NCBI GenBank assembly: GCA_022820025.1
Contig: JAJEGF010000035.1
Location: 1 to 64,000, forward strand
Source: Chloroflexota bacterium
GTDB taxonomy: Bacteria; Chloroflexota; UBA11872
Direction of reading: 5' to 3'
DNA length: 64,000 nt
Part shown: piece after piece, positions 33,894 through 48,723 of the stretch
How the letters are laid out: each line of letters begins with the position of its first letter
Numbering within the stretch: position 1 is the first letter of the stretch
Made by a program: the position numbers and the translations under genes
The notes under the pieces: generated by a model
Told to the model about the DNA's origin: nothing
The model's input: the letters and a program-made list of their open reading frames with translations, nothing else
Database searches by the model: none

Positions 33894-35330
33894 TCAGCCG
33901 ACGACGGGCCACTCGGGCGCCAGATCAAGACCCAGCCGCTTCGCGCGCACGGCCACCGATTCGGACACGGCCTGGAGAACCTCGGCCTCATCCAGTCGGG
34001 TCGAGCGCCCCCCGCTGAACACCAGGTCGCCATTAACCAGAACCGTGTCCACGCTTCCGCTCCGTAGTGTCAATGCCAGCCGATGGATGGGATTGTTGTC
34101 GGGATGTGCCTCCGCCGACCCCGCGGATCTCACCACCACGTCCGCGCGCTTGCCCGGCGCCAGGCTTCCCAGCTCTGCTTGCAGTCCCGCGGCCGCGGCG
34201 GCGTTGATCGTCTGCATCTCCAGGAGCGCACCCGGCGAAATCGAGTCGCGATAGGTCTGAGCCTCGAAGTGCGCCGCCAGCATCGTCTCGCCCGGCGTGC
34301 AGTCAAATGCGCCGTCGGATCCCAGCGACACGCGCACGCCTCGCCGCGCCCGCTCCGCCATCCTGAAGCGCATGCGTCCGCCGATTCCCAGCGAGAAGAA
34401 CGCCGTCGGGCACCACACGATCTGGCATCCCGACTCGTGGACCGCCGCTTCGTCGGTCTCGTCCAGCGCATTCGCGTGCACCACAACCGTGTGCTCGTCC
34501 AGCACGCCCAGTTCGTGCAGGTGCGCCACCTGGCTGGCGCCGTTCAGGGCCCGATAGATCTCCGCCTCCTCGGGCACATATCCCGCGTGCAGGTGCAGTG
34601 GTACGTCGTTCTCGCGGGCGCAGGCATGCGCCGCCTGCAACAATTCAGGCGAGCCCGTCCCCACCCCATAGACGAAGACGTACCCGCGGACCCGTGCCTC
34701 GGCATCGTGGTTTCGGTGCAACTCCGCGTCGAGTTGCCGGAGGCACCGCACACGATCGACCGGCGCCCGAGCCATCAGGCTCCGACTCTCCAGCGCCGGC
34801 ATTGCCTCAAAACACTCGCGCCGGTCCCAGAGATACAGCGGGGCCAACAGTGCTCGCAGCCCCACCCGCTCAACCGCCGCCGCGGCGGCGTCAGTCGAAA
34901 ACAACGAACCCGGCTCAATGAACATCGTGAAGCCGCACCGCAGCATCTCCAGGCCGGCCATGGCCGTGGCCGCGGCTTCGTCGATCTCGGTTACCCCCGC
35001 CTTCCAATCGGCGAATTTGATCGTCGACGAGCCGGTGTCGTGAATGTTCCCGAACACCCCCCGACAGGACGTATGCACGATGTGGTTGTGGGCGTCAATC
35101 AAGCCCGGATGCACGATTCCCCCGCGGGCATCCAGGGTCTTCCGAGCCTCGAAACGATCTCGCAGATCGGCATCGGCGCCAACCGCCACGATCCGCGAGC
35201 CCGCAATCGCCACGGCCCCGGGCCGATAGATCGAGCGCAGCGAATCCATCGAAACGACCTGCCCGTTGCGAATCAGCAAGTCGCACGGGCGTCGGCCCAC
35301 GCCGGCCGGCTCCGACCTCGAACGCGTCAT
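33894..35330 (-). CDS. Amidohydrolase family protein (cytosine deaminase/TRZ-like)
   Basis: LLIRNGQVVSMDSLRSIYRPGAVAIAGSRIVAVG...GGIVHPGLIDAHNHIVHTS...VSLGSDGAFDCTPGETM. Confidence 0.93.
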   Translation of the reverse strand: MTRSRSEPAGVGRRPCDLLIRNGQVVSMDSLRSIYRPGAVAIAGSRIVAVGADADLRDRFEARKTLDARGGIVHPGLIDAHNHIVHTSCRGVFGNIHDTGSSTIKFADWKAGVTEIDEAAATAMAGLEMLRCGFTMFIEPGSLFSTDAAAAAVERVGLRALLAPLYLWDRRECFEAMPALESRSLMARAPVDRVRCLRQLDAELHRNHDAEARVRGYVFVYGVGTGSPELLQAAHACARENDVPLHLHAGYVPEEAEIYRALNGASQVAHLHELGVLDEHTVVVHANALDETDEAAVHESGCQIVWCPTAFFSLGIGGRMRFRMAERARRGVRVSLGSDGAFDCTPGETMLAAHFEAQTYRDSISPGALLEMQTINAAAAAGLQAELGSLAPGKRADVVVRSAGSAEAHPDNNPIHRLALTLRSGSVDTVLVNGDLVFSGGRSTRLDEAEVLQAVSESVAVRAKRLGLDLAPEWPVVG

Positions 35331-35348
35331 TCCACAGATCGGAAGGGG

Positions 35349-35792
35349 CTAGTCCTGCCCCATTGCGGCCAGCCGCTTCGACATCTCATCCATGTCTACG
35401 TCCTCGATGTGGCTGGCGATCGACCAGGTGTTGCCCGACGGATCCACCACGCGGGCAATCCGGTCGCCGTAAAACTGATCGGACGGCTCGTCCTTGGCGG
35501 TCGCGCCCGCCGCGACGGCCTGGGCGTAGACGGCGTCGACAGCCTCCACGTAGAGATGCATCTGCGAGTTGGTGACCGGAAAGTCCGGCGGCGCCGGATC
35601 GGACAGCATGACCACCGAGCCTCCAATGTCCACTTCGGCGTGGCCGATCAGGCCCTCCCCCATCGGAATGCGCGTCCGCTCGACCGCTCCGAAGGCACGC
35701 GCAAGAAAGTCCAGATACCCGGCCGCTTCCTCAACGATCAGGTACGGCGTCACCGCCGCATATCCGTCTGGAATCGGTTTTACCTCAGTCAT
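35349..35792 (-). CDS. VOC-family (glyoxalase/PhnB-like) protein
   Basis: AVTPYLIVEEAAGYLDFLARAFGAVERTRIPMGEGLIGHAEVDIGGSVVMLSDPAP. Confidence 0.92.
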   Translation of the reverse strand: MTEVKPIPDGYAAVTPYLIVEEAAGYLDFLARAFGAVERTRIPMGEGLIGHAEVDIGGSVVMLSDPAPPDFPVTNSQMHLYVEAVDAVYAQAVAAGATAKDEPSDQFYGDRIARVVDPSGNTWSIASHIEDVDMDEMSKRLAAMGQD

Positions 35793-35982
35793 CGGGGCTC
35801 CTCTCCGGCTGGTGGTCACGTCGTGGCTGTCGACCGTGCGGCCTCCGACGTCCGCCAGGGACGGCGGTCCATGACCTCAGATGCCGGCTGCTCGTCATCC
35901 ATCATGCCCGCTGCAGCCCCATCGTGATTGACGTGGCAGACTCGTCCTTCTACGGTGTCTGCCCGTCCCTTGCGGTGATTCA

Positions 35983-37141: not shown

Positions 37142-39619
37142 ATGAACCAGGTACTCACCAGGTTCAGTTCGCTCGTCACGGCCCGCCCGTGGATCACCCT
37201 TCTCGTCATCTTCATCGTCACGATAGCCCTCGGCGCCGGCGGCGCGGTGCGCGCACCGCTTCCTTCCACGGCGGAGACGCTGCCTGACAACAGCCCCATC
37301 GCCGACGCCATGGACGAGATCAATGAACTCTTCGGCGACCACGGCGAGGTCAGCGCCGTCACCCTCCTGTTCCGCGGCGACGCGCTCACGCCTGCCGGGC
37401 TGTCCCAGATGGATGCCCTCCTGAATGACGTTATCGGCGACCCGGGTGTGCAACAGCTGCTGGCCCCCGAAAACCCGGTGTTCTCGCCCGCCACGCTGAT
37501 CAAGTTCGCGCTTCAGGTCGAGAGCCTGGAGGCCGTTACGCAGGCTCAGATCGACGCGGTACGCGTACTTCCGGAAGTCCAACCGCTGCTTGCCCTGATG
37601 ACTGGAACGGATACGGACGGCACGAAGATTGCGATCGGCAACGTTCGCCTCCTCGACACCGGCGACGAGCGAATTGCGGACGCCGAGCGGACGGTCAACG
37701 AATTTGCGGCCGCGTCAGCCGGACCGCTGCAGGCAACCAGCGTCTCGTTCTACGTCATTGAGGACGCCTACAAGGCGGGCATCGAGGAAGGCATGCTGCC
37801 GCTGATCGGCGTGGCGTTCCTGCTCATTGCGTTGCTGCTGCTCCTCTTCACGCGCGCGTTGTCGGACATGTGGCTGACGCTCGCCGGCCTCCTGACCTCC
37901 ATCATCTGGATTATCGGCGCGGAAGGCTGGCTCGGCCCGAACGCGCTGGGCCTCATCGGCCCGCCCAACTCGCTGACCTCGCTCGTCCCGATCATCGTGA
38001 TCGGGCTCACGGTTGACTATGCGATTCAGACCATTTCGCATTACCGCGAGCAGCGCGTCGAGGGACAGGACGTGCTCACGGCCATTCGCCGAGGTCTGAG
38101 CCACGTCACCGTTCCGCTGGTCCTGGCCGCTGTCACCACCATCGTGGGCATGCTGGCCAGCCTGTTCTCGCCCATTGGCATCGTTCGCGACTTTGGCGTC
38201 GTCGCCGGCATGGGCGTCGGCATGAGCCTGATCGTCATGCTCACGCTGGTCCCGGCCAGTCGGGTCATCATCGACCGGCGGCGCGAGGCCCGCGGCAAGC
38301 TGAAGCCCGCTCGTCCGATCGTCAACGCGTTGCCGGGCATCCAGGGATTGGCCGGGGTGATCGGTCGCAGCGTGACCCGCTGGCCCCTGCCGTACATTCT
38401 CGTCGTGCTCGCGATCACCGTGGCGCTCGGGATTTCGGTCCGGGGTCTCAAGTCGGAATTCAGCATCAAGGACATCCTCCCGAGGGGCGGAGCGGTGCAC
38501 GCGGACATGGACACCCTTGAGGCGGCCGTCGGTTGCTCGGCCGAGGTGACCAGCGTGCTCATCAAGGCCGAGGCGACGCAGACGCGCACCCTGCTCAACG
38601 TGCAGGACCTCACGAACGCTTTTGCCGACGAGACCCGGCGTCCGCCAACCGCGGCTGGTCCCATCCAGGCGTCATACGAATTGCTGGTGCGTGACTGGAC
38701 CACGCAGAGCGGCCAGCCCGGCGACAAGTACGATCCCGAGATCGCGGCCCTGTTCCGCGAGGCATCGGCGGGGGTGCGGCTCGATCCGCAGCTGATGCAG
38801 GAAGTGCTCGACCGGATCGAGGCCAGGGACCCCGCGCTTTCACGCCTGCTCGTCAACAACCCGCAGGGCATTGACACCATGCTGCTCCAGTTCCAGAGCT
38901 ACGGCGGCGATACCCAGGCGACCAAGGTGCTCCAGCAGGAACTCGAGGAGCTGTGGGCCGGCGACGACAACGCAATTACGGCGACGTCGCAGAGCATCAT
39001 CTCGATCACCGTCACCGACTCGATCACGGCGCGCCAGACCGAGGCCATCGCAACCACGGTCGCCGCGGCGTTGACGGTCCTGGCCATCTTCTTCTGGCTG
39101 ACGCTACGGCAGCCGGCGTTGGCGATCGTTGCCGTCGGTCCCATCGTGCTGGTCCTCATCTGTGTCCTCGGCACGATGGCGCTGCTTGGGATCCCCTACA
39201 CGATCATCACGTCAATCATTACCGCCCTCTCGATTGGTATCGGCGTGGACTACACCATCCACGTGATCCATAGATATCGGGAGGAGTTCGCCCGCCTGCG
39301 CAACCCGGAGGAAGCGGCCGTACGGACGCTCGCGACCACCGGGTCGGCCCTGTTGGGCTCCGCCATGACCACCGCGCTCGGCCTGGGCGTGCTGGCGGCA
39401 TCGCCATTGGCCGGGTCGCAGCAGTTCGGCATCACCGCGGCCATCACGATCGCCTACTCGCTCATCGTCGCCGTCGTCTTGGTGCCGCCGGCGATGACCA
39501 TCTGGGGCGCCTACCAGAACATGCGCCTGCGCTCCATGGTGGAGCGCGAGTGGTCTGACCTCGATATCGCGATCGACGACGTGTACCGGCGCCACGAAGA
39601 GGAACAGGCGCAGTCCTGA
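37142..39619 (+). CDS. MMPL/RND-superfamily (HAE3-like) exporter
   Basis: 825 aa with two internal-repeat TM blocks (GLTVDYAIQTISHYREQR; GIGVDYTIHVIHRYREEF), as in MMPL/HAE3 proteins. Confidence 0.93.
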   Translation: MNQVLTRFSSLVTARPWITLLVIFIVTIALGAGGAVRAPLPSTAETLPDNSPIADAMDEINELFGDHGEVSAVTLLFRGDALTPAGLSQMDALLNDVIGDPGVQQLLAPENPVFSPATLIKFALQVESLEAVTQAQIDAVRVLPEVQPLLALMTGTDTDGTKIAIGNVRLLDTGDERIADAERTVNEFAAASAGPLQATSVSFYVIEDAYKAGIEEGMLPLIGVAFLLIALLLLLFTRALSDMWLTLAGLLTSIIWIIGAEGWLGPNALGLIGPPNSLTSLVPIIVIGLTVDYAIQTISHYREQRVEGQDVLTAIRRGLSHVTVPLVLAAVTTIVGMLASLFSPIGIVRDFGVVAGMGVGMSLIVMLTLVPASRVIIDRRREARGKLKPARPIVNALPGIQGLAGVIGRSVTRWPLPYILVVLAITVALGISVRGLKSEFSIKDILPRGGAVHADMDTLEAAVGCSAEVTSVLIKAEATQTRTLLNVQDLTNAFADETRRPPTAAGPIQASYELLVRDWTTQSGQPGDKYDPEIAALFREASAGVRLDPQLMQEVLDRIEARDPALSRLLVNNPQGIDTMLLQFQSYGGDTQATKVLQQELEELWAGDDNAITATSQSIISITVTDSITARQTEAIATTVAAALTVLAIFFWLTLRQPALAIVAVGPIVLVLICVLGTMALLGIPYTIITSIITALSIGIGVDYTIHVIHRYREEFARLRNPEEAAVRTLATTGSALLGSAMTTALGLGVLAASPLAGSQQFGITAAITIAYSLIVAVVLVPPAMTIWGAYQNMRLRSMVEREWSDLDIAIDDVYRRHEEEQAQS

Positions 39620-39809: not shown

Positions 39810-40874
39810 ATGCGATTCCCGCTTTCGAAGGAGATTGCACACTTCCGCAATCTATCCAACGGGCTGAAGGCCGCCTACCGTGGATCGGACACCCGCGGCC
39901 GCGTGCGGCACTTCGATGGATGGACGCGCCGAGCGACGGCGGATGATGCCGGCGCGGCGGGCTACGACCACGCCAAGACCGTCTCGGAGTATTACGACCT
40001 TTGCAGTGAGTTCATGGTGTTTGGCTGGGGCGCATCCCTCCACTTTGCGCCGCTGTCCCCACAGGAGAGCCTGGAGGACTCCAAGATTCGGCATCAACGA
40101 CTCATGATTGCCAAGCTGGAGTTGCGCAAGGGCATGACGGTGATCGATGTCGGGTGCGGCATTTGCGGCCCGATGCGCCGCGTCGTCCGCGAGGCTGGCG
40201 TCAGGGTCCTCGGCGTCAATAGCAGTGAAGTCCAGTTGGACAAGGCGAAAGCCCTGAACGCTGAGGCGGGGCTCGAGCACATGATCGACTACCTCGCGTG
40301 CAGCTTCATGGACATGGACGCCGTCGCGGACGGCACGTTCGACCGCGGCTACGCAATCGAATCGACCTGCCATGCGCCGGACAAGGTGGGCGCGTTTGCC
40401 GAGATCTACCGCGTGCTGAAGCCCGGCGCCCTCTTCTGGGGTCAGGAAATGTGCATGACGGACAAGTTCGATGCCGACGACGATCGGCACCGGGCCATCA
40501 AGCAGGAACTCATGCACGGCATTGCGCTCAAGGACATTGCGACGACTGGGGAAGTCGACCGAGCCCTTGAAACCGTGGGATTCCAGGTCATCGAGGGCAG
40601 GGATCGGGCCATCGCCGAGAACGGTCCGACTGTCCCGTGGTATCAGCCGATGGTGACCCGGCGCAGCACGCTGGGCAACGCCCTGCACCGGTTACCGCTG
40701 GGCCGCAAGGCGTTCATTGCGGCATCAAGGCTGGCCGAGATGTTGGGGTTGTTCCCCAGGGGCTCTGCCGAAGTCGTTGGGCTGATGGATCGCACGGCCA
40801 ACGCCTACGTCGCGGGCGGCAAGACCGGGATCTTCACGCCGTTGTATTGCTTCCTGGCCCGTAAACCCCTGTAG
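39810..40874 (+). CDS. Sterol C24-methyltransferase-like protein (ERG6/SMT family)
   Basis: YYDLCSEFMVFGWGASLHFAP (SMT region I), VIDVGCGICGPMRRV (SAM motif), YAIESTCHAPDKVGAFAEIYRVLKPGALFW (SMT YAIEATCHAP), C-terminal FPRGSAEVVGLMDRTANAYVAGGKTGIFTPLYCFLARKPL (sterol-MT C domain). Confidence 0.9.
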   Translation: MRFPLSKEIAHFRNLSNGLKAAYRGSDTRGRVRHFDGWTRRATADDAGAAGYDHAKTVSEYYDLCSEFMVFGWGASLHFAPLSPQESLEDSKIRHQRLMIAKLELRKGMTVIDVGCGICGPMRRVVREAGVRVLGVNSSEVQLDKAKALNAEAGLEHMIDYLACSFMDMDAVADGTFDRGYAIESTCHAPDKVGAFAEIYRVLKPGALFWGQEMCMTDKFDADDDRHRAIKQELMHGIALKDIATTGEVDRALETVGFQVIEGRDRAIAENGPTVPWYQPMVTRRSTLGNALHRLPLGRKAFIAASRLAEMLGLFPRGSAEVVGLMDRTANAYVAGGKTGIFTPLYCFLARKPL

Positions 40875-40912: not shown

Positions 40913-42940
40913 CTAGACGCTCAGTTCGCGTCGCTGCTCGGCAATGCGGAACTTCAGCTTCTTGCTCGGCTTCATCGACGGCAGCGGGTTGAACCCGAGC
41001 TTGAAGTTCGGCGGGGATACTTCGAGCGTGAAGTGATGCGCGACCAGGAGCACATTGACGGCCAACTGGAGTTCCATCCACCCCACGCCAAGGCATCGGT
41101 GCGTGCCCAACCCGTACGGGGCATACCCGGAACTGCGATGTTCGTTGCGCGGAGGCAGATAGCGGTCGATATCGAATTTCAAGGGGTCGGGGAAAACGTC
41201 CTTCATATAGTGCGATGCCGTCTGGGCAATGTAGACCTGAGACCCGATGGGTATCCGGTAGCCTTCGACCACGCACATATTCATCACGGTTCGCAACGAC
41301 ACCGGGACGATCGGGTACACCCGCAGGCATTCCATCAGGAATCGGTGCGTGACGTCGATCGCCTGCGGCTTGAATGCCGCAGCATCCGGATCGCCGTCGG
41401 CGAACAAGGCGTCGGCTTCGACACGGATCTGCTTGTAGAGATCCGGCTGCGACGCCATGGCGTACAGCACAAAGCTGAACGCATCGCCAAGGTAGACACT
41501 GGCAATCAGCGCGGCTGAAAGAACGAAGCGCAGATTCGTCTCCGGGACGAACTGCGGATCGCTGGCGTGCAGGCTCAGCAGGTCATCCGCCAGGTCCCGC
41601 GGACTTCCAGCCCGCTGGGCGGGAGTATGCCCGCTTTGAACCTTTTCCACGAGTTGGTCCAGGATTTTCATCCGGCGCTTCATACTCGGGGTTTTCAGCA
41701 TGAACTTGGGTAGGACTTTCAGTATGTGTACGTTGAGCGCCCGTTCCTTGAAAACCGTCAGATCGTCAAAGATATCCTGCGAATCAATGCTGATCATGAG
41801 CGGCGAGAGTTGCGCGTTTATCATTCGCCGGCACATGCGCGTGGCAGGGTAGGCATCTCCCACCGTCCAGTCCGCCATATGGGTCCGCGCATCCTTGTAA
41901 ACCTGGTCCAGTTGCCCCATCAATCTTCCACGGGAATACGCTGGACCCAGCGACTTACGAAGCCGGAAGTGATCCGCGCCGTCCAGGGATGGCAATACGC
42001 CCGACGCGCCGTAAACCTTCTCGAAGTCCGAAAAATAGTCCTTGGTTCTGAGGTACATGCGGCCGTTCCGATGAACCCAGCGATTCGTCTCGGGCCCCGC
42101 CAGGAAGATCATTGGATTCTGAAAGGGAGGGCGGAGCTCGAACACCGGGCCGTATTCTTCGGCCAGATCCGCGAAGAGCGCGGGAAAATTGCCGCTGCGC
42201 AGATGTCGATTGAACACCAGCCGGCGCAGCGACGCCACCGGAATCTTCTTGGTCAATGCTGAACGTTGCAGTAGCGGTCCGGCGAGACTCTCGGATACCG
42301 CGGCGGCAATGGACCGGCCGATAAGGTCCATGTTGCAGATGAGATGAATGCGTTCCTCGTCCTGATCCTCGAGTTGGAACATGAAGCGAAACACGTCGCA
42401 TGTGTTCACCAGACAAATGATGATCACATCCCGGGGATCAGGTATCTCCTTGTTAAAGATGGCTTTACCAATGCGCGTTCTTACGAATTGAGCTGCCGTG
42501 CCTTCGGTGGGGCCTCCTGCAAGCTCGGACTGCCAGGCAGTCCGCGACAGCGTCCAGAATTCGCCCTCGTGGTACTCCAGGATCTTCAGGTCGACGAGCC
42601 GCTCCAGCGTCGAATCGACAATTGACTCAGCACGCGGGGCCAGCCGTTCGATCCAGTACTGGGCGTTCCGCTGGGCGGATTCCTCGGCAATCTCCTTGAG
42701 TATCGAGTCGAGGATGGGATTCCCGGTTTCTGTAGAGTCCACGAGAAACAAGGCGTCCATATCCGTGTCGATGCGAGATAAGAGTGAGAGTTCGGCAAGA
42801 ACGGCGCCCACGACCGCGCAGTTCAAGTGCCAACCGGGTACCTGGTAAAAGTAGCCGGACTCCTCGTTGAGGAGCATCAGCACGAGCTCGTCGGGCAAAC
42901 TTAGCTGTTTGTTTGCAACAGGCTCAGAAGTGAGAGTCAT
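40913..42940 (-). CDS. GPP34/GOLPH3-like domain fused to cytochrome P450
   Basis: N-term LSLPDELVLMLLNEESGYFYQVPGWHLNCAVVGAVLAELSLLSRI...LERLVDLKILEY...PDPRDVIIICLVNTCDVFRFMF (GPP34-like). C-term P450 with ECLRVYP (ExxR) and YAPYGLGTHRCLGVGWMELQL (heme). Confidence 0.85.
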   Translation of the reverse strand: MTLTSEPVANKQLSLPDELVLMLLNEESGYFYQVPGWHLNCAVVGAVLAELSLLSRIDTDMDALFLVDSTETGNPILDSILKEIAEESAQRNAQYWIERLAPRAESIVDSTLERLVDLKILEYHEGEFWTLSRTAWQSELAGGPTEGTAAQFVRTRIGKAIFNKEIPDPRDVIIICLVNTCDVFRFMFQLEDQDEERIHLICNMDLIGRSIAAAVSESLAGPLLQRSALTKKIPVASLRRLVFNRHLRSGNFPALFADLAEEYGPVFELRPPFQNPMIFLAGPETNRWVHRNGRMYLRTKDYFSDFEKVYGASGVLPSLDGADHFRLRKSLGPAYSRGRLMGQLDQVYKDARTHMADWTVGDAYPATRMCRRMINAQLSPLMISIDSQDIFDDLTVFKERALNVHILKVLPKFMLKTPSMKRRMKILDQLVEKVQSGHTPAQRAGSPRDLADDLLSLHASDPQFVPETNLRFVLSAALIASVYLGDAFSFVLYAMASQPDLYKQIRVEADALFADGDPDAAAFKPQAIDVTHRFLMECLRVYPIVPVSLRTVMNMCVVEGYRIPIGSQVYIAQTASHYMKDVFPDPLKFDIDRYLPPRNEHRSSGYAPYGLGTHRCLGVGWMELQLAVNVLLVAHHFTLEVSPPNFKLGFNPLPSMKPSKKLKFRIAEQRRELSV

Positions 42941-43077
42941 CGCTCTTGGCTCCCCGCGCCTAACCCTGACAAGCCTGTAAACTGAAGCTATATCGGGTGA
43001 GTCGGGACTCGATTGACTCTAGCACAGGCGGCGAGGCCAAGGGCCGATCGCCGAGGGCGAGGAGATACCGGGCATAC

Positions 43078-44187
43078 ATGGCGGTCCAGCACGTAACCGG
43101 TCAGGCCGGTTCTGACGATAGCGAGCGCGGGACCACGTCGGCGCAACGCCGGCGGGCTGTCCTTGCGCCTGAACTCTCCCCGTTCCCGGAGGGCTGGTAC
43201 TTCGTCGCGTCACGCAAGGCCGTCCAACAGGCAGGGCTCATCCAGAAAACCTGGATGGGCGAGAACATTGTCGCCTGGGCCGACCCCGACGGCCGCATCT
43301 GCGTCGCCGAAGCTATCTGCCCGCACCTGGGCGCCGATCTGGGCTCGGCCGCGGGTGGGCAAGTCAGCGACGGTCGGCTCGTCTGCCCCTTCCACGGCTA
43401 CGAGTTCGACACGACCGGCCAGTGCGTCGCCACTCCCTTTGCTCCGGCGCCCAGGACCGCCAAATTGCGAGTCTTCGAGACCCACGACATTCACGGTTTG
43501 GTCTTCGCGTGGTGGGGCATCGACGGGCGCCCGCCGCAATGGACCCTGCCCACGGAGCCCCTGGAACAGGACGGCTGGTGCGACTACGAGATCACCACCC
43601 TGCGCTTTCCCGGCCATCCCCAGGAGACCACCGAAAACTCCGTTGACCTGGCCCACCTGCGCTACGTCCACGGCTACGACAACGTGGACCGCTCCGCGCG
43701 AATGCTGGTGGACGGGCATCGCCTCGAGAGCCGATTCAGATTCAAGCGCGTCCGCACCATCGCCAGGTTCGCCAGGCTGACCTTCAGCGTTTCCGCCGAT
43801 ACCCACATCTATGGACTGGGCTACTCGTTCGTCGACATCCGTGAGCACTCCATCGGCATGAACATGCGGCTCTGGGTGCTGGCCACCCCCGTTGACGGCA
43901 CGCTCATCGACATGACGCTGGTCTCGCAGGTCCGCGAGATCCGCAACCCGAAGCGGCTCTTTGTCGGCTTGGGCATTCTTCCCCGACGGTTCCGCGCCCC
44001 CCTCATCAACAAGTTCATGTCGCTTCAGCAGAAGGAGGACGTCCTGCAGGACGTGGTGATCTGGGGTCGCAAGCGGTACATCAACCGGCCCCGCCTCTGC
44101 CGATCCGACGGCGAGATCATGCCCTTCCGCTACTACGCCGCCCAGTTCTATCCCGAACCCGGCAACGTCGAGGACTCCGCAACCTGA
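43078..44187 (+). CDS. Rieske [2Fe-2S] non-heme iron oxygenase (candidate sterol/steroid oxygenase)
   Basis: ICPHLGADLGSAAGGQVSDGRLVCPFHGYEFDTTGQC; catalytic-domain-like ENSVDLAHLRYVHGY. Confidence 0.92.
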   Translation: MAVQHVTGQAGSDDSERGTTSAQRRRAVLAPELSPFPEGWYFVASRKAVQQAGLIQKTWMGENIVAWADPDGRICVAEAICPHLGADLGSAAGGQVSDGRLVCPFHGYEFDTTGQCVATPFAPAPRTAKLRVFETHDIHGLVFAWWGIDGRPPQWTLPTEPLEQDGWCDYEITTLRFPGHPQETTENSVDLAHLRYVHGYDNVDRSARMLVDGHRLESRFRFKRVRTIARFARLTFSVSADTHIYGLGYSFVDIREHSIGMNMRLWVLATPVDGTLIDMTLVSQVREIRNPKRLFVGLGILPRRFRAPLINKFMSLQQKEDVLQDVVIWGRKRYINRPRLCRSDGEIMPFRYYAAQFYPEPGNVEDSAT

Positions 44188-44196
44188 GCGTCGGCG

Positions 44197-45552
44197 CTAC
44201 GCCTTCCTGAACCCCAGCCCGTACATGATGCTCCCGTAGTAGTTGAACCACCGCCGTGCCGCGGGATCTTCGAACGGGTAGTCGGCGCCGATCTGCCGGG
44301 CCGCCGCCAGCCCGCTCACGAAGCACGTCTCCTGGCTGTTGACCAGCGTATGCGCCCCGCAATGCCAGGTTCGCCGCTTGCCCTGGATGAACTGGAACAG
44401 GTTGATCAGCACCGCAACGTGCTTCACGTCATGCACGATGTGCTGAAACCACCATCGCTTGATGATCTTGCCTTCGTCGATGCGGCTGATCGGGTTATAC
44501 GTCACCAGGCATGGCTTGTCGGACCGGTTCGCCCACGGCTGCTGGTTGTGCATGATGTACGTGATCTCATAATTGTCCGGTCTCGCTCCGTACTGCTCGA
44601 TGTAATTGCTTCGTGTCTCCAGCGGCTTCATCTCATTGTCCGGAAGGACCGAAGAATCGGAATGAACGATCGCATGATTGTGCAGCTCGCTCTCGTAACG
44701 AATCGATGAGAGCAGATAACGCTCAACTAGTGTCGGCTTGTCCAGGATCATCAGCGTCTGGTTCGCGTTGCAAGCAAAGATCACGTCGTCAAACGTCTCC
44801 CGTATCGCGTCTTCGTCCTCGACTTCGACGCAATCCGCACGCCGATACACCTTACGCACCGGCCGGTTGAGATGGATCTTGTCCCGAAAGTCCGCCGACA
44901 GGTTTTCATAGATGCGCCGCGTTCCCTGGTCCCAGGTCTGCATCGGCGTGGCCTTCTCGATGTCAAAGAACTCGAGGTATCGGCTGAAAAGCGCGGCCGG
45001 CATGTCGAACACGTTTGTGGCCATCAGGAAATTGACGAACATCGGCTTCAAGATCTTGTATCTGAAGTCCCCCGAAAACCCGCCCAGGTTCAGCACCGTT
45101 CCCATGCTGATGTAGTTGAAAGGGTTCAGCGCGTTCAACAGCTTCGACCGCGATCGCGTCAGCCAGCCAATTCGATGCAATCCCTGCAAGAGGCGCTGGA
45201 ACTTCCTGATCTCGAGTTGCAATTCCTCCCTGATGTCGGAATCGAAATCGTGAGCGTAAACGCCGCCTCCGTACTTCACGCTGTAGCTGAATCGGGTATC
45301 AATCAGCTCGATGCCGAACTTCTCCATCAACAACAGGATGTGGTGATAGACCGACGGGATGCACGCGGTTACGGAGATATCAAAGGGAATCGAGCTGCCG
45401 TCGTCCTGCCCCATGTCGACGGTAATCGCGTTCCCACCAACCTGCGCGTTGGCCTCGAAGAGCCGGAAGTCAAAGCGGTCCGGATGCTGATGCAACGCCC
45501 AGGCCGCGCCGAGCCCTGAAATGCCTCCACCGACGATGGCGATTCGGCGCAA
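44197..45552 (-). CDS. FAD-dependent (amine-oxidase-like) oxidoreductase
   Basis: RRIAIVGGGISGLGAAWALHQHPDRFDFRLFEANAQVGGNAITVDM; 451 aa. Confidence 0.92.
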   Translation of the reverse strand: MRRIAIVGGGISGLGAAWALHQHPDRFDFRLFEANAQVGGNAITVDMGQDDGSSIPFDISVTACIPSVYHHILLLMEKFGIELIDTRFSYSVKYGGGVYAHDFDSDIREELQLEIRKFQRLLQGLHRIGWLTRSRSKLLNALNPFNYISMGTVLNLGGFSGDFRYKILKPMFVNFLMATNVFDMPAALFSRYLEFFDIEKATPMQTWDQGTRRIYENLSADFRDKIHLNRPVRKVYRRADCVEVEDEDAIRETFDDVIFACNANQTLMILDKPTLVERYLLSSIRYESELHNHAIVHSDSSVLPDNEMKPLETRSNYIEQYGARPDNYEITYIMHNQQPWANRSDKPCLVTYNPISRIDEGKIIKRWWFQHIVHDVKHVAVLINLFQFIQGKRRTWHCGAHTLVNSQETCFVSGLAAARQIGADYPFEDPAARRWFNYYGSIMYGLGFRKA

Positions 45553-46059: not shown

Positions 46060-46319
46060 GCTGCGGTCTCCTGTTGAACGTCCGGCTGTGCAGCACGCGT
46101 GCCGCGTTCACTCAGCCTAAGGCAAGCAGGCTTGCCCGCGGCACGAGAGGGATCGGAGCGCCCTGGTCGGGAGGCCGCCAGCCTCCGCTCGTCACGCTCG
46201 GCAGCGGTCCCGGGGACGTGCGCTGACGGCTGTGCGTGGAGAGTCTCGAGATACCCAATTGACCGCTCGCATGGGCAAATTCATAATGACCGAATCATTA
46301 GCAGTCGGGGTATTTGAGC

Positions 46320-47459
46320 ATGATTGAATGGCTCGGCATTCAACACCTGTTCGAGCTTTCCCCAACGGAAGCCATTATTGGCTTTTTCACCCCGCTGATT
46401 ATTTTCGCCGTATTGTTCGTCGTGCAGCTCATCCTGCCGGGAATCCGCGTTCCCGGATACGTTACAAATACGGAGACCGGCCAACCCCGTAGCTATCGTC
46501 TCAACGGCATCCTGGTCTTTGCCATAGCCGTAATTGTGTGGGCGACCGAAGTCACCGGAATGCCACGCACCTGGTTCTACGAATCAGCCGTCTATTCGGT
46601 GGCTGGCGGAACGGTTGTCGTCGCCATCCTTACCCTCATAGCCGTCTTCAGCCAGCCGCAAGACGAAACGAAGAGTCCGATCGCGGCCTTCTGGCTGGGA
46701 CGCGTTCAGGAGCTGTCATTCCTCAAAGAGCGTATCGACTTGAAAATGTACTTTTACGTCGTCGGCGGCTCCATGTTCTCACTCAACGCCCTGTCCGCGG
46801 CCGCCTGGCACGTCGAGCGCTTCGGCGAGAATGCCAATCCTGGAGTCTTCCTGGTCGCGGCATTCTATACGTGGTATGTAGTGGACTACTTCATCTTCGA
46901 GCGAGTCCAGCTGTACACCTTCGATGTGATCTACGAGAAGCTTGGCTTCAAGATGTTCTGGGGCGGTCTGATGGTCTACGGCTGGATCTATATCCTACCC
47001 CTGTGGGGCATGGCTGCGCATCCCAGCCCCGGCTTCTCCACGGTGTGGACGTACGTCTGGCTCATCGCGGTGGCGGCGCTGTGGATCATTGGCTGGGTGA
47101 CTAGCCGCGGCGCCAACATGCAGAAGTACACCTTCAAGCGCTGGCCCGACCGCAAATTTCTCGGTCTCATCCAGCCTGAGTACATCCAGGCCGGCGATCG
47201 CAAGATCCTGGTCAGTGGCTTCTGGGGCGCCGCCCGCCACATGAACTACCTCGGCGAGTGGTTCCATGCCTCCGCCATCGCCCTGGCCTTCGGCCACTTC
47301 ACCAACCTCTGGGCCTGGACCTACTTCATCTGGATCGTCGCGCTCTTCGTCACCCGCCAGCGAGAAGACGATCACTACTGCGCGCAGAAATACGGCCCCG
47401 AGAAGTGGGCCGAGTACCAGGCCCGCGTGAAATACCGCATCTGCCCCTGGGTCTACTGA
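46320..47459 (+). CDS. ERG4/ERG24/DHCR7-family sterol reductase-like membrane protein (copy 1)
   Basis: C-terminal family signature KILVSGFWGAARHMNYLGEWFHASAIALAFG...REDDHYCAQKYGPEKWAEYQARVKYRICPWVY; multi-TM. Confidence 0.88.
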   Translation: MIEWLGIQHLFELSPTEAIIGFFTPLIIFAVLFVVQLILPGIRVPGYVTNTETGQPRSYRLNGILVFAIAVIVWATEVTGMPRTWFYESAVYSVAGGTVVVAILTLIAVFSQPQDETKSPIAAFWLGRVQELSFLKERIDLKMYFYVVGGSMFSLNALSAAAWHVERFGENANPGVFLVAAFYTWYVVDYFIFERVQLYTFDVIYEKLGFKMFWGGLMVYGWIYILPLWGMAAHPSPGFSTVWTYVWLIAVAALWIIGWVTSRGANMQKYTFKRWPDRKFLGLIQPEYIQAGDRKILVSGFWGAARHMNYLGEWFHASAIALAFGHFTNLWAWTYFIWIVALFVTRQREDDHYCAQKYGPEKWAEYQARVKYRICPWVY

Positions 47460-47583
47460 GCCAGGACCCCGTGAGCGCCAAAACGTGTACCACCAACCCT
47501 GCGAGGAGAGGCGGGTCGCTCGTTGACCGTTTCCTTGCCCGTCTCCATAATCGCCGCAGCGCTGGAAGTCGGGGTAATCGATC

Positions 47584-48723
47584 ATGATCGAGTGGCTGGG
47601 TATCGAACACCTTTTCGAGCTTTCCCCAACCGAAGCAATCCTCGGCTTCCTTACACCGCTCGCGATCTTCGTTGTGTTCTTTATCGCCCAGGTTGTCCTG
47701 CCCGCCCGCCGCGTTCCCGGCTATGTCATCAACCCGGAGACCGGTAAACCCCGCAACTATCGCCTTAACGGTCTCCTCGTCTTCATCATCGCCATCGTCG
47801 TATGGGCCATCGAGCCATTTGGCTTGCCGCGCGACTGGTTCTACCGCTCGGCGGTTTACGCCGTGGCTGGCGGCACCGTGTTTGCCGCCCTCATTGCGCT
47901 CGTGGCCATGCTCAGCCAGCCGCAGGGCGAGATCAAGAATCCCTTCCACGCCTTCTGGACCGGGCGGTCCCTCGAGCACCCGCTATTCAACGAACGCTTC
48001 GATCTGAAGATGTACCTCTACGTCGTCGGCGGCACCATGCTGGTTCTCAACGCCATGTCCGGAGCCGCCTGGCACTACGAACGCTTCGGCGACAACTTCA
48101 ATCCCGGCGTTTTCCTCTACACCGCCTTCTTCACCCTCTACATATTCGACTACTTCATCTTTGAACGCGTCCAGCTCTACACCTACGACTTGATTCACGA
48201 AAAGCTCGGCTTCAAGCTGATCTGGGGCGGCCTTGTCATCTACGGCTGGCTATATATCCTCCCGCTCTGGGGCATGGCCGTATATCCGAACCCTGGCTTC
48301 TCGGCGGCCTGGACCTACGTGTGGCTTATTGGAACGGGCCTGCTCCTAGTCTTCGGCTGGTCCATCTCGCGTGGCGGCAACCTGCAGAAGTACTGGTTCA
48401 AGCGCTGGCCCGACCGCAAGTTCCTGGGAATCATCGAGCCCGAATACATCCAGGCCGGCGACCGCAAGATCCTCTGCAGCGGTTTCTGGGGCGCCGCCCG
48501 TCACTTCAACTACATGGGCGAAGGGTTTGCCTGTTTTGCCATCGGCCTGTCATTCGGGCACTTCACCAATCTCTGGGCCTGGACCTACTTCATATTCATC
48601 GTCTCGCTGTTTACCTGGCGTCAATGGGACGACGAGGCGCACTGCGTGGAGAAGTACGGCGAGGAGAAGTGGGCCGAATACAAGGCCCGCGTCAAGTACC
48701 GCATCTGTCCGTGGGTCTACTGA
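47584..48723 (+). CDS. ERG4/ERG24/DHCR7-family sterol reductase-like membrane protein (copy 2)
   Basis: Tandem paralog: KILCSGFWGAARHFNYMGEGFACFAIGLSFG...WDDEAHCVEKYGEEKWAEYKARVKYRICPWVY. Confidence 0.88.
   Translation: MIEWLGIEHLFELSPTEAILGFLTPLAIFVVFFIAQVVLPARRVPGYVINPETGKPRNYRLNGLLVFIIAIVVWAIEPFGLPRDWFYRSAVYAVAGGTVFAALIALVAMLSQPQGEIKNPFHAFWTGRSLEHPLFNERFDLKMYLYVVGGTMLVLNAMSGAAWHYERFGDNFNPGVFLYTAFFTLYIFDYFIFERVQLYTYDLIHEKLGFKLIWGGLVIYGWLYILPLWGMAVYPNPGFSAAWTYVWLIGTGLLLVFGWSISRGGNLQKYWFKRWPDRKFLGIIEPEYIQAGDRKILCSGFWGAARHFNYMGEGFACFAIGLSFGHFTNLWAWTYFIFIVSLFTWRQWDDEAHCVEKYGEEKWAEYKARVKYRICPWVY

Follow-up and report, generated by a model that had tools for sequence, protein, structure and literature searches.

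Two adjacent genes in a 64-kb stretch of DNA from a Chloroflexota bacterium (contig JAJEGF010000035.1, positions 1 to 64,000; hereafter the window) encode closely similar multi-TM proteins that resemble sterol reductases. The locus raises the question of which reaction such a pair would carry out, on which substrate, and whether both copies do the same. A first-pass annotation of the sequence had described the genes as tandemly duplicated ERG24/ERG4/DHCR7-like reductases, copied together with their leaders and possibly split in specificity.

Two reductase genes derived from an old duplication

The two genes were defined as follows:

46320..47459, + strand: copy A, 379 aa, PF01222 membrane protein of clade III, the more derived copy
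47584..48723, + strand: copy B, 379 aa, PF01222 membrane protein of clade III, nearer to the family consensus

Both were found to be full-length open reading frames, arranged head to tail on the + strand with a gap of 124 bp, copy A running from an ATG at 46320 (with an in-frame TTG at 46314) to its stop at 47459 and copy B from an ATG at 47584 to its stop at 48723. The encoded proteins align without gaps and are identical at 266 of 379 positions (70%, 567 bits), bearing out the description of the genes as adjacent paralogues, and the C-terminal sterol reductase signature noted at first reading was present in both. At the nucleotide level, identity was 73% overall and 56% at third positions, with a dS of about 1.2. 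This divergence, together with the presence of both copies in two genera of the window's family (g1 and g2), indicated that the duplication is old. Comparison of each copy with its own orthologues yielded dN/dS values of 0.09-0.11 for copy A and 0.05-0.08 for copy B, indicating purifying selection on both.

The orthologues of copy A formed a single clade across g1 and g2, as did those of copy B, and a quick tree set these two clades apart. Separate acquisition of the copies was dropped, as the AU test did not reject A and B as a single clade (p 0.895), an arrangement of higher likelihood than that with the two apart. A tandem pair was also present in another family of the same class, the copies of which grouped together with a support of 80, so tandem duplication may have occurred more than once.

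Family membership, fold and active-site residues

Both copies matched the Pfam family ERG4_ERG24 (PF01222) over nearly their full length, with scores of 135.1 bits (3.9e-39) for copy A and 127.3 bits (8.9e-37) for copy B against a cutoff of 27 bits; no NCBIfam model matched either. Two delta-14 sterol reductases were the only matches for the pair in a sequence search of the PDB, and MaSR1 of Methylotuvimicrobium alcaliphilum (PDB 4QUV) was matched at 4e-88 by a profile built from clade III, the group to which the pair belongs, plus eight rows of clades I and II (see below). An AlphaFold2 model of copy A, built from an alignment of 54 sequences, reached a pLDDT of 89.4, and a Foldseek search with this model returned MaSR1 (4quv) as the best match (1.7e-17, TM 0.80), followed by steroid 5-alpha-reductase (SRD5A; E 0.04) and ICMT (E 0.09). 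The annotation had itself pointed to ICMT/DUF1295 proteins as the competing identity, and copy A did give a weak second match to DUF1295 (30 bits); as this compares with 135 bits for ERG4_ERG24, copy B gave no such match, the fold search placed ICMT far behind MaSR1 and the reductase residues are conserved in both copies, the idea that these are methyltransferases mistaken for sterol reductases was ruled out by profile and fold and must be considered extremely improbable.

In the alignment, residues Y241, D257, K319, R356, H357, N359 and Y360 of MaSR1 were conserved in both copies, as were R395, D399, C403, K406 and Y407. These include N359 and R395, which belong to the NADPH pocket (PMC4951196), and Y241, the tyrosine that is predicted to be catalytic together with D363 (PMC12489058), so that the loss of cofactor residues which the annotation had contemplated did not materialise. 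R323 was replaced by Lys, as in clade II, and D363 by Glu, which is also found in clade II. At the position of D271, the yeast counterpart of which has been placed opposite the C3 hydroxyl of the sterol by docking (PMC12489058), both copies carry Gly whereas clade II retains Asp, and the LPF at 275-277 has become Tyr-Gly-Trp (YGW) in nearly all clade III members. Both copies thus lack the aspartates at D363 (predicted to be catalytic) and D271 (proposed C3-OH contact) that would be expected of ERG24 proper. In summary, the pair shares with MaSR1 the fold, the cofactor residues and the catalytic Tyr at about 30% identity, and differs from it in having Glu at D363, Gly at D271 and YGW at 275-277. 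As the NADPH and catalytic residues are conserved while D271 and 275-277 are altered, the chemistry looks, on sequence grounds, to have been kept and the substrate pocket to have changed; Gly at D271 combined with YGW hints at a substrate other than a 3-hydroxysterol. The pair are most likely NADPH-dependent C=C reductases.

When the residues of A and B were compared with those of 69 other clade III members, copy A was found to carry Tyr205 where 68 of the 69 have His, and Trp314, next to the catalytic Glu, at a position that is Gly in 63. Two more fixed unusual residues of copy A are Phe201 and Trp338, and copy B is mostly consensus at the positions where A is unusual. Because such fixed changes lie near the active site (Tyr205, Trp314), the split in specificity suggested by the annotation is plausible, these residues fitting a split but not proving it, and copy A may plausibly have acquired an altered substrate or double-bond preference.

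The pair belongs to a clade distinct from the reductases of cyclase clusters

A tree restricted to the PF01222 proteins from these genomes contained three clades. Clade I, a long branch of three rows with an ARKxHY motif that we take to resemble ERG4, did not include the pair. Clade II consisted of the reductases adjoining an epoxidase-cyclase fusion and, going by this position, would be the published 'CSG' reductase. Clade III, the family of the window, had a long stem (SH-aLRT 100) and a shallow crown across phyla; the ERG24-type reductases of oxidosqualene cyclase (OSC) clusters did not group with the pair, which is about 32% identical to clade II. The label ERG24/ERG4/DHCR7-like is correct at the level of the PF01222 family, but the pair is not simply any one of these three enzymes. 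OSC-type epoxidase-cyclase fusions were present in 8 of 38 clade III genomes and were not seen in about 30; all eight cyclase genomes also carry clade III, and in six of them the contig with the cyclase has a clade II gene as well. Such surroundings, for the most part without a cyclase, speak against a conventional de novo sterol pathway.

Clade III is shared across phyla, often in sponge-derived genomes

When 85,462 species genomes were scanned, 226 relatives came to light. The best 80 of these were full length, 66-97% identical and all from MAGs or bins, spanning, by record title, about 12 phyla at an identity of at least 66%: Chloroflexota, Alpha- and Gammaproteobacteria, 'Deltaproteobacteria', Acidobacteriota, Binatota, Nitrospirota, Nitrospinota, Latescibacterota, Gemmatimonadota, Dadabacteria and Actinomycetota. 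According to record titles and papers, many of these are derived from sponges, among them Spongia_Bin9, 'Palauibacter rhopaloidicola' RHO1 and MPMJ01, a sponge symbiont (PMC6946804). The labels COS, IRC and jk18 presumably denote Coscinoderma, Ircinia and the Kelly Ircinia set, as read from a published list of sponge species (PMC8163846) and from the Ircinia set itself (PMC9531527), and the window organism is probably a marine-sponge symbiont as well.

Clade III was otherwise rare, being present in 4 of 295 Nitrospirota genomes, in the query genome alone among 289 alphaproteobacterial genomes drawn and, among 201 Chloroflexota genomes, in three families of the window's class only. In two members of the window's own genus (G001 and G004, completeness at least 91%), no reductase pair was seen, nor was the GPP34-P450 fusion described below, so that these genomes lend themselves to comparisons bearing on host association. 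Phage- or plasmid-borne spread was discarded as no vector was found, viral contigs yielding no relative and plasmids a single distant match (29%, Planktothrix). Clade III is shared horizontally among sponge symbionts.

A promoter-leader conserved with the gene

The upstream elements of the two copies were as follows:

46259..46287, + strand: TTGACC-N17-CATAAT, promoter-like site of copy A, ending some 32 bp short of the ATG
47523..47551, + strand: promoter-like site of copy B, TTGACC-N17-CATAAT, 32 bp before the ATG

The motif has the appearance of a -35/-10 pair and would be sigma-70-like; as it precedes each ATG, every copy has its own promoter-like site. Allowing spacers of 16-19 nucleotides, these two were the only exact matches in the 64-kb window, against 0.01 expected from dinucleotide shuffles. 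The leaders of A and B were 65% identical over the 60 bp before the ATG and 40% identical over 200 bp. The similarity just upstream of both starts, which the annotation had remarked upon, was thus real and had been understated, forming the 3' portion of a promoter-leader that is conserved, and a leader of the same type was confirmed before both copies.

Across about 2.2 Mb of loci plus the window, many of the loci overlapping and selected for the presence of a reductase, 52 of 52 motif matches preceded clade III reductases, including two filter-flagged matches which by position and sequence belong to Rhodospirillales reductases with a variant start. Among more distant loci the strict motif was found in a minority, and a slightly looser form in 12 of 55, the background rate being 0.2% per 100 bp. 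Upstream stretches of 300 bp yielded 40 cross-phylum similarities at E<1e-3 (one with shuffled sequences, one with other stretches of the same loci), and downstream stretches yielded 21 (none and one, respectively). Given that dS between phyla is about 1.1-1.3, with synonymous sites near saturation, the similarity of the leaders at a dS above 1 indicates selection on the leader and its having travelled with the gene. The promoter was not found before the SMT, P450, Rieske or flavoenzyme genes considered below.

The flanking homology, which extends for about 80 bp on the upstream and 75 bp on the downstream side, was also considered as a possible sign of where a mobile cassette ends. This was rejected since, with dS near saturation, unconstrained flanks would be unrecognisable and the edges of homology mark constraint, not the unit of transfer. 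A downstream stem-loop was likewise rejected, as folding was weakly better than that of shuffles (z -0.7 to -2.4) and, for the stretches 3' of the window copies, no better; the sequence of this region was conserved in a dozen loci. A GAGGGCTCCCTGCGGAGTCCATGCAGGG-like stretch was seen just 3' of the reductase stop at L062, L100, L049, L054 and L045, loci from several phyla, and none was seen behind copies A and B.

Neighbouring genes form a recurrent module

Genes preceding the pair in the window included the following:

34083..35927, + strand: 614-aa ORF, no Pfam or NCBIfam match
37142..39619, + strand: MMPL/RND transporter, in the module of related Chloroflexota
39810..40874, + strand: SMT-type methyltransferase, Methyltransf_11 plus C-terminal Sterol_MT_C (PF08498, 7e-15)
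40913..42940, - strand: GPP34-cytochrome P450 fusion, 675 aa (GPP34 1.5e-30, p450 4.5e-34)
42997..44187, + strand: Rieske oxygenase with a KshA_C domain (3-ketosteroid 9alpha-hydroxylase oxygenase, 1.6e-26)
44197..45552, - strand: flavin amine-oxidase-like protein, sharing 76-85% identity with those of other phyla

The best PDB matches of the P450 part of the fusion were CYP51, and that of the Rieske protein was KshA. GPP34 is a Golgi phosphoprotein 3-like domain, and its fusion to a P450, of which a literature search found no description, accompanies clade III reductases in many phyla; by eye, its I-helix (YLGDAFS) lacks the usual Thr, and the ExxR and heme Cys motifs are present. The flavin amine-oxidase-like protein is related to LkcE and PDB 2b9w, and a 56% identical copy of the 614-aa ORF lies upstream of the reductases at another locus (L035).

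The fusion with both domains was detected in 33 of 34 clade III genomes (41-98% identity; split over two frames in two of the 33) and GPP34 alone in one, while a Sterol_MT_C protein was detected in 31 of the 34 and the SMT-type methyltransferase lay beside GPP34-P450 in many genomes. Among the 201 Chloroflexota, 22 had both the reductase and the fusion (counted at 60% identity or above), 2 had one of them and 177 neither, and in Nitrospirota the fusion was present in 4 of 4 reductase genomes and in 8 of 295 overall, all of these being raw counts confounded by relatedness and shared habitat. One relative, 97% complete, has the reductase pair and lacks GPP34-P450. The module is called sterol-related mainly because its parts lie near the OSC fusion in cyclase genomes: the SMT, Rieske, flavoenzyme and GPP34-P450 genes all within a few kb in G211 and G215, SMT, Rieske and GPP34-P450 in G210, SMT and GPP34-P450 in G219, and the flavoenzyme and GPP34-P450 in G229.

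Proposed role in sterol remodelling and alternative explanations

That clade III relatives mostly seem unable to make sterols suggests the remodelling of sponge- or microbe-made sterols. The account that we consider moderately likely is that the pair serves as reductases, with the neighbouring module, in a cyclase-free remodelling of sterols made elsewhere. Copies A and B would be polytopic members of the sterol-reductase superfamily that reduce C=C bonds with NADPH. Alongside the SMT-type methyltransferase, the GPP34-P450, the KshA-like Rieske oxygenase and the flavoenzyme, they would modify the side chain and/or rings of a presumed sterol substrate, which would not be self-made but presumably obtained either from the sponge host or from symbionts that have a cyclase. 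The gene for the reductase would have moved between sponge-bacterial phyla together with its promoter and been duplicated in the window's family before the split of g1 and g2, copy A then changing near its active site and probably shifting its substrate or double-bond preference.

It is unlikely, in our estimation, that the substrate is instead a non-sterol polycyclic or isoprenoid lipid, such as hopanoids or sponge terpenoids. Such a substrate would suit the single cyclase match of the window genome, a 669-aa protein of the squalene-hopene type, and the loss of the proposed ring-A contact residue in clade III. However, several of the 38 clade III genomes searched, including five Dadabacteria, gave no SHC/OSC match, so that self-made hopanoids can be no general substrate, and the partner genes are SMT-like and steroid-oxygenase-like.

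We regard as quite improbable a role in steroid or sterol catabolism, in which the Rieske protein would act as KshA and the reductases would remove double bonds from the rings as breakdown proceeds. The best PDB match of the Rieske protein would agree with this, as would the enrichment of sponges in steroid degraders and the steroid degradation route proposed for SAR202 (PMC5790920), but the module includes an SMT-type methyltransferase, an alkylating and biosynthetic enzyme, parts of it occur in the OSC clusters of cyclase-bearing genomes, and the window genome encodes a single KshA_C protein.

The pair might also represent an ordinary ERG24, that is, the sterol delta-14 reductase of a full bacterial de novo pathway, given that its closest structural relative MaSR1 is annotated as a delta-14 reductase, that Glu at the D363 position is common to clade III and the cyclase-side reductases, and that a CYP51-like P450 lies nearby. 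However, searches of the window genome and of seven others from its family turned up no oxidosqualene cyclase, and an OSC fusion in the window genome would have been seen, as OSC fusions score about 1e-55 with the same profile. The window genome is 93.6% complete, and MAGs being incomplete, a cyclase may have been missed, yet its absence recurs in many genomes. Furthermore, the PF01222 gene on the cyclase contig of six of the eight cyclase genomes belongs to a different, strongly supported clade. An OSC-linked ERG24 is thus disfavoured by tree and genome content, and is judged very unlikely.

Relation to known systems and implications

Sterol remodelling by the pair would have several parallels. 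Steroid gene clusters of the TM7SF2/ERG24-CYP51-LSS type have been described from Ircinia symbionts (PMC9531527) and the msb cluster from Melophlus (PMC7074536). Like the pair, these occur in sponge bacteria of many phyla, have spread horizontally and include an ERG24-family reductase; judged by position, however, their reductase would be of clade II, whereas the pair is clade III and found mostly in cyclase-free genomes. Bacterial SMTs make 24-isopropyl sterols, and one chlamydial SMT occurs in a MAG with no other genes of sterol synthesis (PMC10070321). That work, as would the window module, relates to sterol side-chain alkylation by sponge symbionts; it is about the methyltransferase, and the clade III reductase, the promoter and GPP34-P450 were not found in the parts of it consulted. 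Host-associated bacteria can have a sterol reductase while lacking sterol synthesis, as in Coxiella (delta-24 reductase) and sponge chlamydiae (PMC9666466 and references therein). As proposed for the pair, these reductases act, or are presumed to act, on host sterols; compared by description only, the pair differs in forming a separate clade, spanning about 12 phyla and having a common promoter and partners.

The origin of sponge sterols is disputed, including that of 24-isopropylcholesterol, the proposed earliest animal biomarker, and both de novo sterol clusters and alkylating SMTs have already been published from sponge bacteria. Beyond these, the present analysis points to another gene set, seemingly of wider occurrence, in cyclase-free symbionts, with which symbiont editing of host sterols becomes testable using named genes. 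One gene and its promoter in many phyla of one habitat would also constitute a clear example of a habitat-bound, horizontally shared trait. It is possible, although we put this forward tentatively, that in sponge symbionts of about a dozen phyla a horizontally spread, cyclase-free pathway, made up of a clade III reductase whose promoter travels with it plus GPP34-P450, SMT, Rieske oxygenase and flavoenzyme, turns the sterols of host or neighbours into the unusual alkylated sterols of sponges; if true, part of the sponge sterol signal, biomarker precursors included, would be a community product.
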